The translations under genes and the position numbers were made by a program. 47,763 nucleotides of DNA from Filomicrobium sp. GTDB lineage: Bacteria; Pseudomonadota; Alphaproteobacteria; Rhizobiales; Hyphomicrobiaceae. The DNA is taken from assembly GCA_030665765.1 (NCBI GenBank), contig DAOUZE010000002.1, positions 1-47,763 on the forward strand, written 5' to 3'. The notes under the pieces are model-generated. The model saw nothing but the letters and a program-made list of their open reading frames with translations. It was not told where the DNA came from and did not search any database. Positions 14,653-22,409 of the stretch are shown here, one piece after another (position 1 is the stretch's first letter; each line of letters opens with the position of its first letter).

Positions 14653-15471
14653 ATGTCCGATTCTGGCGCAGACGACAAAGACGAAGCGAACCCCGGCACG
14701 GAGCCCTGCGCGCAGCCAAAGGCCAAGTCCGAGGCGCTTGGGGAGGCCGGTTCTGCTGCGCCCCGCACGCCGGAAAAGCACTCCTACATCCGCAGGCTGG
14801 CGCATGAACTGAAGACGCCGATTTCCGCGATTGTGGCCGCCTCCGAGGTCATGAGGGACGAGCAGCTCGGACCCATCGGTGACGAACGCTACCGGCGCTA
14901 CGCTGCCGATATTCATGACAGCGCCAAACTAATGTTGGCGATCATCGACCGCATGCTGGCGCAGCGGTCGCGCGATCCAGATCAGCCGTCGTTGGATTTC
15001 ACCGAAGTCGATCCCGTCGACCTGCTGCACGCCACGATTTCGGCGATGTTGCTGCTTGCGGAGTCCTCCGGCATACGGCTGAAACTGGTTCAGCCTGGGC
15101 AATCGCTGCCAAGGGTGATCGCCGATGCCTCAACGCTGAAGCAAATCCTGATCAATCTGCTTACAAACGCGCTGAAGTTTACTGCCAGAGGCGGGCAGGT
15201 GGTGGCGACGGCGTCTTATGAACTGGACGGCCCGTTGTCATTCGAGATCCGCGACACAGGGCGAGGCATGACGGAAGCTCAAATATCGCAGGGGCTGAAG
15301 GGCCTCTTGCCCGAGGGGCAACACCGTGACGGCGGCGGACTTGGCGTCGGCTTGCCGCTCGTCAAGGCGCTGGCGGAAGCCAACGGAGGAAGGCTCGAGC
15401 TAAAGAGCACGCCTCCGCTGGGAACGACGGCGTTAATAATTTTTCCAAAAGAGCGGGTCGTCCTTGTGTGA
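14653..15471 (+). CDS. Soluble sensor histidine kinase
   Basis: A 272-residue histidine kinase with no membrane segment. After a hydrophilic, Glu/Ala-rich N-terminus of 40 residues come the dimerisation helix with the H-box RRLAHELKTPISAI (phospho-His at residue 51) and an HATPase domain: N-box ILINLLTNALKFT, G1 box RDTGRGMTE, G2 box GGGLGVGLPLVKAL. The H-box and ATP lid resemble the DivJ/PleC group of alphaproteobacterial cell-cycle kinases, but no PAS domain is present. No response regulator is adjacent, so the partner is unknown. ATG 14653 has no clear ribosome-binding site. The cytochrome c gene begins 155 bp downstream in the same direction and may or may not be co-transcribed. Confidence 0.88.
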   Translation: MSDSGADDKDEANPGTEPCAQPKAKSEALGEAGSAAPRTPEKHSYIRRLAHELKTPISAIVAASEVMRDEQLGPIGDERYRRYAADIHDSAKLMLAIIDRMLAQRSRDPDQPSLDFTEVDPVDLLHATISAMLLLAESSGIRLKLVQPGQSLPRVIADASTLKQILINLLTNALKFTARGGQVVATASYELDGPLSFEIRDTGRGMTEAQISQGLKGLLPEGQHRDGGGLGVGLPLVKALAEANGGRLELKSTPPLGTTALIIFPKERVVLV

Positions 15472-15626: not shown

Positions 15627-16406
15627 TTGATAAAAGTGCTGAAAGGTTTCGCCACCATTCTCTCGGTATTTTTCGTCTGCTGGGCGGCGCTTGCATTGGC
15701 CGATACATCCGGGGAATCGGAGGAAGCGCAATTTGTCTTTGGAACTCCCGACCAACCATCAGAAGCCTGGCTGCTCGCTGCTGGTGGCCGCATCTACGAC
15801 AATTGGTGGGATGCACTTGACCGCAAGGAGCCGACGGACACACACCCAGCCTATCCAGAAAGTGGCCGTAAGACGGGCTCGGCGACGTGGCGCTGTAAGG
15901 AGTGCCATGGCTGGGATTATCGAGGCCGCGACGGGAGATATGGCGAGGGTAGCCACTTCACGGGCATAAAGGGCATTGATGGAGCAAAGGGCAGAGATCC
16001 CGCCCAGATCGCGAAGTTTTTGCGCGAGAAACCGCACAGCTATTCGGCGGAAATGATCAAAGATGACGAACTCGCGCGGGTGGCTGCTTTTGTCAGCGCA
16101 GGCCAGGATGAAACGGCTAGATTCGTCGATCCCAAGACCGGCGCTGTCAAAGGCGACAAGAAACGCGGAGAGGCGATCTTCCAAACGACCTGTGCAGCCT
16201 GCCACGGCTTCAAAGGCCGATTATTGAACTGGGGCACGAGCGAGGAACCGGCCTACGTCGGCACCGAAGCCAATGCCGCGCCCGATGAGGTGCTCCATAA
16301 GATCCGCAACGCCCACCCGGGGGCAGCAATGGTCAACCTGCGAGTACTTCCGATTGAAGACGCGGCTGCCGTGCTGGCCTACATCAAAACGTTACCCCAG
16401 AAATGA
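15627..16406 (+). CDS. Diheme c-type cytochrome
   Basis: A 259-residue exported cytochrome c. The signal peptide is ATILSVFFVCWAALALA, cut before DTSGES. Two covalent heme sites are seen: CKECH (residues 90-94) and CAACH (189-193). A later Met in GAAMVNLRVL may be the axial ligand of the second heme. The segment between, with GEGSHFTGIKGIDGAKGRD, is Gly/Asp-rich. The start TTG at 15627 is eight bases after GGAG. Its stop overlaps the start of the iron-type permease gene by four bases (ATGA), which implies translational coupling. A role in iron redox chemistry during uptake would make sense of the pairing, but that is inference; the cytochrome could serve any periplasmic electron transfer. Confidence 0.88.
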   Translation: MIKVLKGFATILSVFFVCWAALALADTSGESEEAQFVFGTPDQPSEAWLLAAGGRIYDNWWDALDRKEPTDTHPAYPESGRKTGSATWRCKECHGWDYRGRDGRYGEGSHFTGIKGIDGAKGRDPAQIAKFLREKPHSYSAEMIKDDELARVAAFVSAGQDETARFVDPKTGAVKGDKKRGEAIFQTTCAACHGFKGRLLNWGTSEEPAYVGTEANAAPDEVLHKIRNAHPGAAMVNLRVLPIEDAAAVLAYIKTLPQK

Positions 16407-18280
16407 GCTGGCAATCGGGATTTCCAGTCCCCTCGTTGGGAGAGACGACGCGCAAACTAGCCGGCCTTGGCCAGCGGGTGAACCGGTGGCGTGGCAAGCG
16501 CCGCTCATCGCCGCTGTGGACCATCGCTGTTGCTTCGATCATGCTGGTCATGGCGTTGCCGATCGTTACGGTCGTCGTACTGGCCCTCACACCCGAAGAG
16601 AATATCTGGCCGCATCTCGTCGCCAACGTGCTGTTTGGTCATCCCCCTATGATTGCCATGTTCTTGGCCGGTCTCGGCTGTGTTGGCTTGTCGTTTTATG
16701 CGTGGCGGCCAACGGCACCGGCGGCAACGCCGCTTGGCTACCTTTCGGTTGCCGCGCTGGTGCTGGCTTTGGGATCTTTTCCCGGATCAATCGGCCAAAC
16801 CGTCCTGCTGATGAGCGGCGCTGGAATTTTGACGATCGTCACGGGCACGGTCGCCGCGTGGCTCGTCACGATGTACCGGTTCCCAGCCCGTGCCATTGTC
16901 GACCGGCTACTGGTCATCCCGCTTGCTATGCCGACCTACATCATCGCCTATGCGTACGTGGAATTGCTCGACTATGCCGGCCCTTTGCAGACCTTCGTGC
17001 GTGACCTATTCGGCTTCCGTTCGTCGCGGGATTACTGGTTTCCGGAGATCCGTTCGATCGGCGGTGCTGTCTTTATCATGGCCTCGGTTCTCTACCCCTA
17101 TGTCTATCTCACGGCACGGGCGAGTTTCGTCCAGCAGTCGGTGTGCGCGCTCGAAGTTGCCCGAACACTTGGGCGAACGCCGCTGGGCGTCTTTTGGGCC
17201 GTTGCGCTTCCACTCGCACGACCTGCGCTGGTTGCAGGTGTGGCCCTTGTTTTGATGGAGTGCCTCAACGACATAGGCGCTGTCGAATACCTAGGGGTAC
17301 AGACGCTGACCGCCAGCGTTTATAGCACCTGGATGCAACGTTCGAACTTGGGCGGCGCCGCGCAGATCGCAACCGTGATGCTTGGCTTCATCGTAGTGTT
17401 ATTTGCCGCCGAACGTATGGCGCGCGGTTCGGCGCAGATCCACCACACAACGGGGCGCTATCGGTCGATCCCTTTCCACGATCTCACAGGGTGGAAGGGC
17501 TACACAGCAGCGGCAGTTTGCGCGGCACCGTTCGTCGCAGGTTTCCTGGTACCGGTGCTGGTGCTGATCCGCTTGGCGTGGACCGCTTCGGAGGATGCCG
17601 CCGGCAACCGTTTTTTCGAAGCGGCTTCGAATAGTTTCTTTCTTTCTGCTGTCGCAGCGGGCGTTGCTGTTTGGCTGGCATTGACGCTCGGCTACGCCAA
17701 ACGAGTGGCGGCGAACGGATTCACACGACCAGCTGTCCGTATTGCCGGGCTTGGATATGCCGTGCCGGGCACCGTGCTGGCGCTCGGACTGCTGATACCA
17801 CTTGCCGGCCTCGACAACAGCATCGATGCGATGATGCGGTCGACTTTCGGTGTATCGACGGGACTGCTGTTTTCAGGGTCCATCTTCGCCTTGATCATCG
17901 CCTATTCGATCCGTTTTCTGGCGGTCGGGCTGGGAACGATAGAGGCTGGACTGGAACGGATTTCACCCAATCTCGATGCGGCGTCCCGGGCGCTCGGGGA
18001 GACCGCGCTATCGACGCTAGTGCGGGTGCATTTGCCGTTGTTGCTGCCGGCACTCGGCTCCGCCGGGCTGCTGGTGTTTGTCGATGCAATGAAAGAGCTG
18101 CCAGCTACCTTGCTATTGCGGCCGTTCAATTTCGATACCCTGGCCACTCACATCTACGGACTGGCCGCATTGGAGCAGTTCGAGGAAGCGGCCTTGGGCG
18201 CCCTGACCATCGTGGCCGTGGGGCTTATTCCGGTTCTCCTCCTGCACAGGGCCGTGGCGGGCGGACGCCCTGGAAGCTGA
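16403..18280 (+). CDS. ABC transporter permease, iron(III) FbpB/SfuB type (two fused permease domains)
   Basis: A 625-residue inner-membrane permease with about 12 membrane segments in two halves. Each half carries an EAA-type loop for the ATPase: EVARTLGRTPLGVFWAVALP near residue 250 and DAASRALGETALSTLVRVHL near 530. The duplicated layout and the sequence ECLNDIGAVEYLG after the first loop are typical of ferric-iron permeases (FbpB, SfuB, HitB). It starts inside the stop codon of the cytochrome c gene. No ATPase (FbpC) gene lies nearby, and the nearest solute-binding protein gene (20883) is two genes downstream. Iron as the substrate is a family inference; other SfuB-like systems move thiamine or phosphonates. 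Confidence 0.88.
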   Translation: MSWQSGFPVPSLGETTRKLAGLGQRVNRWRGKRRSSPLWTIAVASIMLVMALPIVTVVVLALTPEENIWPHLVANVLFGHPPMIAMFLAGLGCVGLSFYAWRPTAPAATPLGYLSVAALVLALGSFPGSIGQTVLLMSGAGILTIVTGTVAAWLVTMYRFPARAIVDRLLVIPLAMPTYIIAYAYVELLDYAGPLQTFVRDLFGFRSSRDYWFPEIRSIGGAVFIMASVLYPYVYLTARASFVQQSVCALEVARTLGRTPLGVFWAVALPLARPALVAGVALVLMECLNDIGAVEYLGVQTLTASVYSTWMQRSNLGGAAQIATVMLGFIVVLFAAERMARGSAQIHHTTGRYRSIPFHDLTGWKGYTAAAVCAAPFVAGFLVPVLVLIRLAWTASEDAAGNRFFEAASNSFFLSAVAAGVAVWLALTLGYAKRVAANGFTRPAVRIAGLGYAVPGTVLALGLLIPLAGLDNSIDAMMRSTFGVSTGLLFSGSIFALIIAYSIRFLAVGLGTIEAGLERISPNLDAASRALGETALSTLVRVHLPLLLPALGSAGLLVFVDAMKELPATLLLRPFNFDTLATHIYGLAALEQFEEAALGALTIVAVGLIPVLLLHRAVAGGRPGS

Positions 18281-18888: not shown

Positions 18889-20763
18889 ATGAAGCGAGAA
18901 GACCATCGACAAACTCGTCGTATTTTGGCCTTCGCTGCATTCGCAGTTGTTATTGGTCTGACATTACCGTTTTTCCTGGCGGAAGATCCTGCTGAGACGA
19001 TTCTCAAAGCGTCAGCGGTCTACGCGGCGGACCAAGGCTCCTTTACGCTCAGCGAACCCCTGCAAATCATGAAAGAACCGCGCATTCTGGTGAGGCGCGG
19101 CACGGTCTCGTTGGCACAGCCCAAAGGCGCCACGCCTCTCAGTTCACGCGCCGTCACGAAGCTTTTGGACAGTGGTAAAGGCGTTCTCATCCTACAAGAT
19201 GCCGATATCGTCATTGGCGGTAGCAAGAAGGCGGCTAGCAGCAAGGCATGGCAAGCAAGACAAGCGCCGCTTGCACGTGCGCTCGCCGACATGCACCTCA
19301 GCGCGCTCATCGTCGAGGATGGAACTCTGCGGTTCGCAGCCGAAAAGGGGCCAACCACACTGCACCACGTGCAGTTGAGAGTGCGCCCGGTTCCGGGAGA
19401 GAGAATGACCGCAGCCGGCAGCTTCGAGTTGCTCGGCCGGACCTTGAAATTCGACACGACGATTGGCTTTAGTGCTGCCGACCGGTCTGCACAACAACTC
19501 CCAATCCGAGGCACTGTTGACGGTGGGACGCTGCTTCAAGCCTCATTTGATGGTCAATTCGCCCTCGGGGATGGCGGCCGGCTCAACGCGGATACCTCGC
19601 ACCTGCAGGTCAACGATGTTCCAATGTTTGCGCGTTGGCTTGGCTTGGCTTGGCAGACGGAATTCGGCCCCAAGACTTTCACATCAGACGGCCGGATGGA
19701 ATGGGCCGGCCAGGCGCTCCATTTTCCCAGCGCACGGTTCAAACTCGACGCCAACACTGCGGCCGGTTCCTTGATGATCAACTGCAATGGCGAACGGCCG
19801 CTGATCGATGGCACCTTGGCGTTCGAACGCTTCGAACTCAGCGGGCTAATGGCCCGAACCGACAGCGAGGCCACTTCATCTATTATTGCATCGACTGTGA
19901 AGCAAACTGTCGACTGGTTACCGCCGCACCTTCATAAATTCCTCAGCGAAGCGAGTCTGCCGATACTGCGACAGCTCGACATCGATCTTCGGGTTTCAGC
20001 ACAAAGCACCGTCGCCGGTGAACTTTCACTCGGTCGTACGGCCGCTTCGATGACACTGCACGATGGCCGCATTCTTGTGGACTTTGCTGAAATGCAGCTG
20101 CCTAACGGTGGCTCGGGTAACCTGCAGCTCACCGTCGATACGAGCCGACCCGTCGCGCAATGCGGCGTACGCGGTCAACTCAAAAGTGTTCGCCTCGAAC
20201 ACCTAACGGATTTCATTTTTCCGCATCAGGTCATTACTGGGCCAGCTGATGTCACAATTGACCTCAACTGCGACTGGTACACTGCCGACACCTTCATGCG
20301 CAGTCTAGAAGGTCCGGTCGAGGTGCAAATGCGAAACGGGGCAACGTTGCGCGCCAATTTACCCGGTCTCGTCAAAAGCATCGGAGTCGGCGAGGCTCCC
20401 ACGAGCGGATGGGGAGACGCGGCCAGAGGGCAGATGGGGCTGCAAAGCATATCCGCGCATGTGGTGTTTAAAAACGGCGTGGCGCGGATCAATCGGCTTC
20501 ATGGTGCACGGCGGGGACGCAGCGAGGTGGCAGTAACCGGGACGTTTAGCCTTCACCGGCGCAGTTTGGACCTCAGTTTGTTTCCACGTGACGAGCCGAA
20601 TGCTGGCGAAGAGCCAAGCGTGCTCTACATCACCGGCCAATGGGACAATCCAATGCTGTTTCGGCGGCCCTTCCCTAACAAAGCCCAAAATCCCCTCTAC
20701 CCTAATACAACACCGTTGCCGGCGGCGCCGAAATCACGGGGTCAAGCTTCGACTCGCGGATAA
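18889..20763 (+). CDS. AsmA-like envelope protein
   Basis: A 624-residue protein with one N-terminal membrane anchor (residues 11-31, LAFAAFAVVIGLTLPFF) and a long periplasmic part of beta-rich repeats. Features of the AsmA/YhdP group include a C-terminal segment with LPGLVKSIGVGE, GLQSISAHVVFKNGVARI and a final GTFSLHRRSLDLSLF followed by YITGQWDNPMLFRRP, the typical AsmA_2 ending. The family is thought to help move phospholipid between membranes. The substrate or effect here cannot be told. ATG 18889 is preceded by AGGACG at a short distance. It is followed 119 bp later by a solute-binding protein gene on the same strand. Confidence 0.85.
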   Translation: MKREDHRQTRRILAFAAFAVVIGLTLPFFLAEDPAETILKASAVYAADQGSFTLSEPLQIMKEPRILVRRGTVSLAQPKGATPLSSRAVTKLLDSGKGVLILQDADIVIGGSKKAASSKAWQARQAPLARALADMHLSALIVEDGTLRFAAEKGPTTLHHVQLRVRPVPGERMTAAGSFELLGRTLKFDTTIGFSAADRSAQQLPIRGTVDGGTLLQASFDGQFALGDGGRLNADTSHLQVNDVPMFARWLGLAWQTEFGPKTFTSDGRMEWAGQALHFPSARFKLDANTAAGSLMINCNGERPLIDGTLAFERFELSGLMARTDSEATSSIIASTVKQTVDWLPPHLHKFLSEASLPILRQLDIDLRVSAQSTVAGELSLGRTAASMTLHDGRILVDFAEMQLPNGGSGNLQLTVDTSRPVAQCGVRGQLKSVRLEHLTDFIFPHQVITGPADVTIDLNCDWYTADTFMRSLEGPVEVQMRNGATLRANLPGLVKSIGVGEAPTSGWGDAARGQMGLQSISAHVVFKNGVARINRLHGARRGRSEVAVTGTFSLHRRSLDLSLFPRDEPNAGEEPSVLYITGQWDNPMLFRRPFPNKAQNPLYPNTTPLPAAPKSRGQASTRG

Positions 20764-20882
20764 GGGGCGGAGTATCGGGAATTGGGGTCTTTGGGAAATC
20801 ACTAGCTCTCGGAGCGCTCCCTGCAAGACTGAGTATGTTTCCCCCCTACGTCCCCGTCGCGACACAAAAGGTTTGGTATCCG

Positions 20883-22409
20883 ATGAGCGAAATTTTGCCT
20901 CCGCCGCTCTACACGCTTAACAACACCCGCTTCTGCTCCAGGAAGCAGGTTGGTGATACAGCTTGGTTTAAGGTCGGCATCTGCGCCATTGCGCTCTGCT
21001 TTGTGATGCCAGTTCAGGAACTTCGCGCGCAGCCCAGCCCGCCGGCACAACAATCTAAAATCTCCGAAGGACAGGCGGTCCAACCCAAGAAGCAAGCTGC
21101 TGAGGTGCAGCGGCCCGATGCAGACACAGAACGCCCTGCAACAGCGATCGGCGTCACATCCGATGGCGCCCAAGATAAGAGTGCCGCGGAGCTCGACGAA
21201 GAGCCAAACGTCGAATCTGCCGTAACCACTCAGGACGGCTCTGAGCAACAGGCTCACCAGCCCGATAGAACTGTTGAACCCACGGCGGATACGCCATCCG
21301 AAGTAATAACCACGAAAGAGCCTGCCGCCAGCGAGCCAGAACCAAACAAGCTCAATGTTGCGATCTGGTCCGGCGCTTACGGTGCCGCTCAAAGGGAGGT
21401 GGTGATCAATCGCTTCAAGGAGAAGCGGGACATCGACGTCGATGTAACCGTCCGGACGAATGGGGCGCCGATTGACCTTGGCGAAGGGAAGCCAGGTGTT
21501 TCGCTCGACGCCGGGGAGTTTTCCGCTGTCGAGATCGACGCAGGATGCAGTGCCGGTCAACTTGTAAAAATCGCGTCGGGCGAACACGCGCATGCTGTGA
21601 CCGGCAGCGATGGGGCCAGAGCGGATTTCCTGCCGGGTAGCCTGAAACCTTGCGGAATTGGTACGTTCGCCTGGTCGCATGTGATCGCAATCAACCGCAA
21701 GGCGTTCAAAAAGCAGAAGCCTCAGAGGCTCGTTGATCTCTTCGACGCAAAACGGTTTCCCGGCAAACGCGCCTTGATCAAAGATCCACGTTTTTTACTT
21801 GAAACCGCGCTGATGGCGGATGGGGTTTTGCCTGGTGAAGTTTACGGGCTTCTTGCGACGACCGGTGGGCAGGACCGCGCTTTTGCAAGACTCGACCAGA
21901 TCAAGAAACAGATAATCTGGGTTGATTCAAGCAAGGCTGCGATCAAAGCGCTCGGATCTGGTGATGCAGCTATAGCGCAAACCTTTAGCGGACGCGCGTT
22001 CTTTTCCGTCGCGCGCGGTTTGCCGCTCGATATTATCTGGGACGGCCAAATCTATTCGATGACCTACTGGGCGATCCCTACGAAAAGCACGCGACAGGAT
22101 CTTGCTCTGGAATTCTTACGGTTCGCGACCGAGCCGCAGCAGATGGCGGCCATCGCACAGCGCTTTCCGTATGGCCCCACGCGGACCTCGGCATTGGCGT
22201 TGACCAAGCGACACATGACGGCCGGTCTCGACCTCGGCGCCTTCCTACCGACAGCTCCAGAAAATCTCACCACCGCGCTTGAACATAGCGAAACCTGGTG
22301 GCGGGACAACCGCGATAATGTTGAGGCGCGTTTCATGGAGTGGCTCTCCGGGGTGGAAGCAGCGAAGGTCGATGAAGCACAAAAAGCGACGCCCGCGAAA
22401 GCCGAGTAA
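20883..22409 (+). CDS. Extracellular solute-binding protein (PotD/SBP_bac_8-like) with long acidic linker
   Basis: A 508-residue exported binding protein. A signal peptide (VGICAIALCFVMPVQELRA) is followed by about 110 residues rich in Gln, Glu, Pro, Thr and Ala, which look disordered. The binding fold starts at NKLNVAIWSGAYGAAQ. Later parts include FAWSHVIAINRKAF, KRFPGKRALIKDPRF, GDAAIAQTFSGRAFF, YSMTYWAIPTKS and LEFLRFATEPQQMAAIA. These suit the spermidine/putrescine-like family. I chose ATG 20883; ATG 20835 is also open. The linker would let the domain stand off the membrane or bridge the periplasm. No ATPase or dedicated permease is adjacent; the iron-type permease at 16403 is the closest candidate. 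A terminator follows directly. Confidence 0.84.
   Translation: MSEILPPPLYTLNNTRFCSRKQVGDTAWFKVGICAIALCFVMPVQELRAQPSPPAQQSKISEGQAVQPKKQAAEVQRPDADTERPATAIGVTSDGAQDKSAAELDEEPNVESAVTTQDGSEQQAHQPDRTVEPTADTPSEVITTKEPAASEPEPNKLNVAIWSGAYGAAQREVVINRFKEKRDIDVDVTVRTNGAPIDLGEGKPGVSLDAGEFSAVEIDAGCSAGQLVKIASGEHAHAVTGSDGARADFLPGSLKPCGIGTFAWSHVIAINRKAFKKQKPQRLVDLFDAKRFPGKRALIKDPRFLLETALMADGVLPGEVYGLLATTGGQDRAFARLDQIKKQIIWVDSSKAAIKALGSGDAAIAQTFSGRAFFSVARGLPLDIIWDGQIYSMTYWAIPTKSTRQDLALEFLRFATEPQQMAAIAQRFPYGPTRTSALALTKRHMTAGLDLGAFLPTAPENLTTALEHSETWWRDNRDNVEARFMEWLSGVEAAKVDEAQKATPAKAE

Follow-up and report, generated by a model that had tools for sequence, protein, structure and literature searches.

The window, a stretch of 47,763 nucleotides from a Filomicrobium sp. 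genome (G000; 4.0 Mb in 542 contigs, the window being carried by contig C534), encodes a diheme c-type cytochrome whose gene overlaps the gene of an ABC permease. The genes of this locus are the following:

14653..15471, + strand: soluble PdhS/DivJ-like histidine kinase (profile matches), 155 bp upstream of the cytochrome gene
15627..16406, + strand: secreted diheme c-type cytochrome, 259 aa, TTG start (open reading frame, Pfam, signal segment, 33-member alignment)
16403..16406, + strand: ATGA stop/start overlap of cytochrome and permease (open reading frames; identical in five species)
16403..18280, + strand: FbpB/FutB-type ferric-iron ABC permease, 625 aa, ATG start, two fused permease halves
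18889..20763, + strand: AsmA-like protein (profile, neighbourhoods)
20835..22409, + strand: PotD/opine-type solute-binding protein with a long acidic, Glu-rich N-terminal region

In the interval between the kinase and the cytochrome, no conserved promoter was seen when four species were compared. The Irr-type palindrome TTTAGAANNNTTCTAAA was matched, with three mismatches, at one site in the window and at one near FutA, which is about chance level.

The TTG start of the cytochrome gene is preceded by a GGAG at the usual spacing. The protein matches Cytochrome_CBB3/Cytochrom_C in Pfam (E 2.8e-12) and carries, near its N terminus, a hydrophobic signal segment (residues 7-25); further membrane spans are absent. 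Its two CXXCH sites and its predicted export place it among the tandem diheme c-type cytochromes, and an alignment of 33 members of its family allowed us to define the following positions:

15894..15908, + strand: heme-binding site 1, CKECH, residues 90-94 (motif; 33-member alignment)
16035-16037, + strand: H137, invariant, between the hemes; candidate sixth ligand of heme 1
16191..16205, + strand: heme-binding site 2, CAACH, residues 189-193 (motif; 33-member alignment)
16329-16331, + strand: M235, invariant, after heme 2; candidate sixth ligand of heme 2

Both CXXCH sites are conserved throughout this alignment apart from one row that deviates at the second site, and the family is marked by an N-terminal GGRIYDNWW block and a CHGWDY motif. 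On the basis of the invariant M235 and H137, we infer His/Met ligation for heme 2, while heme 1 is perhaps His/His ligated.

Comparison with known cytochromes yielded only generic relatives. The protein reached no cut-off among the curated NCBIfam models (QcrC, 35 against 200 bits; c550, 31 against 125; CcoP, 19 against 180), and its relatives among PDB sequences and in Foldseek were generic diheme cytochromes, with nothing below E 0.001 in the latter search. It resembles the tandem class I diheme cytochromes represented by the periplasmic part of CcoP, QcrC of the actinobacterial bc1 complex and cytochrome c4 in having two tandem CXXCH domains in the periplasm, but the similarity amounts to tens of bits, far below the NCBIfam cut-offs. 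It differs from them in its own GGRIYDNWW block and CHGWDY motif, and in that the candidate ligand of heme 1 is an invariant His, an invariant Met being absent. The nearest fold was that of the thiosulfate dehydrogenase TsdA, with a match too weak to be of use (Foldseek E 1.7e-3, TM 0.24). In TsdA, a Cys serves as the sixth ligand of the active-site heme; the only invariant Cys residues of the present family are those of the CXXCH sites, and membership in the TsdA group was rejected.

The permease contains two BPD_transp_1 stretches (Pfam). Its closest solved relative by sequence is 9j4r (E 3.8e-33 in a PDB search), a cryo-EM structure of FbpBC, a ferric ion importer from Thermus thermophilus, and the AlphaFold model of the permease (mean pLDDT 74) matched the same entry in Foldseek with E 8.4e-18 and a TM of 0.82 on the target. 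The protein, two permease halves joined into one double-length chain, is accordingly of the FbpB type. FutB relatives are common, being present in 77 of the 103 genomes of the family and in 314 of the 398 genomes of an order-wide sample. The kinase gene, which is short, frequently lies upstream of FutB across the family, and the AsmA-like gene is a frequent downstream neighbour.

Neighbourhood comparison showed FutA to lie beside FutB in many Hyphomicrobiaceae; in g9, g10, g14 and further genera the gene order is kinase, FutA, a 175-residue protein and FutB. Over the 103 family genomes, 72 contain both FutA and FutB, 5 FutB alone, 4 FutA alone and 22 neither (p 6e-14, with genomes counted individually and kinship ignored). 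Because of the 9j4r match, the adjacency to FutA in relatives and this co-occurrence, there is a strong case, by homology, that the permease is the FutB/FbpB membrane subunit of a ferric-iron importer. The sequence-only reading had called it iron-type, and the match to 9j4r in sequence and fold, together with the FutA adjacency in relatives, bears this out.

The 175-residue protein between FutA and FutB carries conserved Cys residues (FCRDECLA....AACQH), occurs in 82 of the 103 family genomes and has no significant Pfam match. Copies were located at:

G036:C52:14878-15399, - strand: 175-residue Cys protein (L216)
L149 8047-8574: further copy
G000:C432:20322-20780: further copy, in the genome of the window

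FutA and a putative FutC are encoded elsewhere in this genome. A single FutA (P0001, contig C381) matches FbpA 1q35 with E 3e-100 and keeps the NIYSYREP and GNSYYMAAM segments of the Tyr/iron-ligand region, as does a cognate Fe(III)-binding FutA/FbpA. One FutC candidate, clearly the best, lies on contig C482 and is 50% identical over its full length to a FutB-linked ATPase (E 8e-97); the NCBIfam matches listed for it name several importers and are all below cut-off. In Trichodesmium, the FutA gene (Tery_3377) is likewise separate from futB and futC (PMC6254336); a FutA unlinked from FutB is not unusual. The FutA proteins of Synechocystis and Trichodesmium belong to the closest known systems, and the separation of FutA from FutB is a feature that the present system has in common with Trichodesmium.

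In the window's genus (g1) and in g13, FutA has gone from the locus and the PotD-like gene lies downstream of FutB; among the FutA-at-locus genera examined, no PotD-like gene was found. This exchange could mean that the permease now serves the PotD/opine-like protein, whose gene is the second one after its own, and moves a redox-inert cation or a polyamine-like solute. We consider such a change of partner improbable. These genomes retain a single FutA and contain no second FutB, FutB itself being single-copy in the genome of the window, and the permease is still highly identical to the FutB of FutA-linked relatives. An unlinked FutA also has its precedent in Tery_3377. Moreover, binding proteins of the PotD/opine type normally work with PotB/PotC-type permeases.

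The stop codon of the cytochrome gene and the start codon of the FutB gene share the ATGA at 16403-16406, as had been read from the sequence at the outset. The identical overlap is found in four further species, whose cytochromes are 58-77% and whose permeases are 63-90% identical to those of the window. The conservation of the exact overlap while the permeases diverge by up to 37% suggests something more than chance adjacency. From this arrangement of the genes, we infer that the overlap ties synthesis of the cytochrome to that of the permease. No strong Shine-Dalgarno sequence was found before the permease start, within the cytochrome gene, and coupling by re-initiation would therefore fit. 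Given the overlap, the amount of cytochrome would likely follow the amount of FutB in this lineage.

The pair was found in 5 of the 103 family genomes, four of them belonging to the window's genus (G000, G022, G020 and G018; loci L006, L007 and L008 in the latter three) and one to another genus (G077, L011). Apart from these known carriers, no further pair was seen near the FutB places listed for the 398 genomes of the order sample. The pair is not an accident of a single genome, yet it is rare: the conservation that the sequence-only reading had proposed to check holds for five species with the same ATGA, but within two genera only. In five other genomes of these same two genera (G017, G015, G075, G076 and G078), the kinase gene directly precedes FutB in an otherwise similar locus from which the cytochrome is absent, with no recognisable remnant of it before FutB. 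In G019, the kinase precedes a broken FutB.

Relatives of the cytochrome were present at E <= 1e-20 in 20 of the 103 family genomes, mostly at other places in the genome, and in 24 of the 398 genomes of the order sample at the stricter 1e-40; plasmid sequences yielded none. Of the 77 family genomes with FutB, 59 have no cytochrome relative (E <= 1e-20), and over the 103 genomes cytochrome and FutB do not co-occur significantly (Fisher p = 0.09). In Rhodovulum robiginosum, a cytochrome relative and a FutB-like permease lie 4.9 kb apart; this proximity was judged incidental because unrelated genes lie in between.

In the cytochrome tree, four carriers fall in one (starred) clade with the fifth nearby, and a single origin is not rejected (p-AU 0.44). 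In the FutB tree, on the other hand, the carriers do not form a single clade (p-AU 4e-8). With one tree allowing a single origin and the other splitting the carriers, gain and loss of the pair look alike, and its history would be either one origin followed by several losses, or transfer, or a gain that took place twice at this junction. A repeated gain of that kind, if it did occur, would point to function.

The cytochrome family is a broad one: a relative is encoded in 552 of 589 pattern-matching stretches, and the best 80 of these 552 come mostly from Alpha-, Beta- and Gammaproteobacteria. Its neighbours outside the pair include a metallo-beta-lactamase-fold protein, a lipoate-ligase-like protein (this one named by eye), two-component systems with a 2CSK_N kinase, and diguanylate cyclases. 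Over hundreds of loci, the family has no consistent partner outside the pair. The best 80 loci yielded no FutA relative, and outside the pair no gene for iron transport was seen next to the cytochrome.

Several individual members were observed along the way. At L017 (1420-3851), a cytochrome-family gene overlaps a 2CSK_N histidine kinase gene by 4 bases, and around position 7926 of L085 another has a 4-base overlap with the gene for a 571-residue diguanylate-cyclase relative; a GGDEF domain was identified in the L071 relative of that protein. The genome of the window encodes a second diheme cytochrome, 37% identical to the first (L005, G000:C449:6592-7224). G017 contains a cytochrome relative that is unlinked from FutB and has an in-frame TAG (G017:C1:3681320-3681997).

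With a kinase gene directly upstream of the cytochrome, and with other family members adjoining 2CSK_N kinases or diguanylate cyclases, sometimes through a 4-base overlap, the cytochrome might pass its redox state to a signalling protein, either the PdhS/DivJ-like kinase or a different one. The kinase beside FutB, however, matches HisKA and HATPase domains only, with no recognised periplasmic sensor (Pfam, NCBIfam), and it accompanies FutB also in genomes that lack the cytochrome. We regard a regulatory role as very improbable.

Compared with the known Fbp/FutABC importers (Thermus FbpBC 9j4r, FbpA 1q35), the system shares a permease of FbpB fold made of two fused halves, a candidate ATPase and a FutA whose iron-ligand region retains the SYREP and NSYYM segments. 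It differs in the putative co-translation of a diheme cytochrome c with the permease, in that FutA and the FutC candidate are encoded on contigs other than that of FutB, and in an insertion in FutB after TM1:

16634..16780, + strand: 49-residue insertion, FutB residues 78-126 (alignment), with two predicted TM helices after TM1

In the AF2 model, the inserted helices span residues 83-101 and 108-124. The insertion is carried by the FutB proteins of G000, G022, G018, G020 and G017, which form one clade with full support in a FutB tree for which no insertion columns were removed beyond those discarded by the 30% filling rule. Beyond that clade, no aligned match through the stretch was found among the genomes listed from the order sample (398 sampled). 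The insertion is a separate novelty, found only in this clade among the genomes listed. It was rejected as the partner of the cytochrome because their distributions differ, G017 having the insertion without the pair and G077 the pair without the insertion.

Taken at its fullest, the arrangement could represent redox-coupled import, in which the cytochrome either supplies FutA with Fe(III) by oxidising Fe(II) or acts as a reductant of FutA-bound iron at the mouth of the permease, translational coupling keeps the two in step and the two extra FutB helices might aid docking. The ATGA pair conserved in five species, the identity of the permease and the predicted periplasmic location of a protein with two heme sites all argue for this, as do the periplasmic oxidation steps proposed for the iron importer FtrABCD (PMC11966278). 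The FtrABCD/FTR1-type systems are similar in that a periplasmic redox protein is encoded with an inner-membrane iron permease; they differ in using FTR1 where an ABC permease is found here, and a cupredoxin where a heme cytochrome is found here. An FTR1-type system was itself rejected for this locus, the permease being of the BPD_transp_1 type. Against redox-coupled import stand the 59 FutB-bearing genomes without the cytochrome, the same-genus relatives without the pair, the cytochromes elsewhere with no iron-transport gene beside them and the insertion that does not follow the pair. We consider this mechanism unlikely, and it seems doubtful that the co-translated cytochrome sets the iron oxidation state at FutA/FutB as a lineage-specific, heme-redox-assisted add-on to FutABC. 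If the cytochrome does touch iron, oxidation of Fe(II) feeding FutA would be more likely than reduction of FutA-bound Fe(III), since the potential of His/Met hemes is usually high and Fe(III) is the form that FutA-type proteins bind.

The reading that we prefer, and think probable, is that the cytochrome is a lineage-specific, co-translated accessory or passenger beside the FutB of an ordinary ferric-iron ABC importer. By homology, FutA would capture Fe(III) in the periplasm, and FutB and FutC would import the iron, with FutA and the putative FutC encoded away from the locus in this genome. The cytochrome would be exported, gain two hemes and work as a stand-alone periplasmic electron carrier, its gene sitting upstream of the FutB gene, and presumably co-translated with it, in a small lineage of Hyphomicrobiaceae. 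The same-genus loci without the cytochrome, the many FutB genomes without a relative of it and the lack of a consistent partner indicate that the transporter does not require it. What the sequence-only reading had described, a diheme cytochrome and an iron-type permease encoded by overlapping genes, stands, and the pair is conserved beyond a single species. Its suggestion of a redox step linked to metal transport fared less well, with the pair in five genomes only, FutB mostly without the cytochrome, no significant co-occurrence and unrelated neighbours elsewhere; a periplasmic redox link to iron uptake is possible and modestly supported.

To our knowledge, descriptions of ABC ferric-iron importers do not usually include a redox partner for the periplasmic step. 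In a literature search of titles and abstracts, with subscription journals mostly outside its scope, we found no description of an Fbp/Fut permease whose gene is accompanied by one for a cytochrome c. If a heme protein is indeed co-translated with the permease, it would become possible to test directly which oxidation state iron has at the importer. Even if the cytochrome is a passenger, the pair constitutes a natural experiment, since close relatives exist with and without it.
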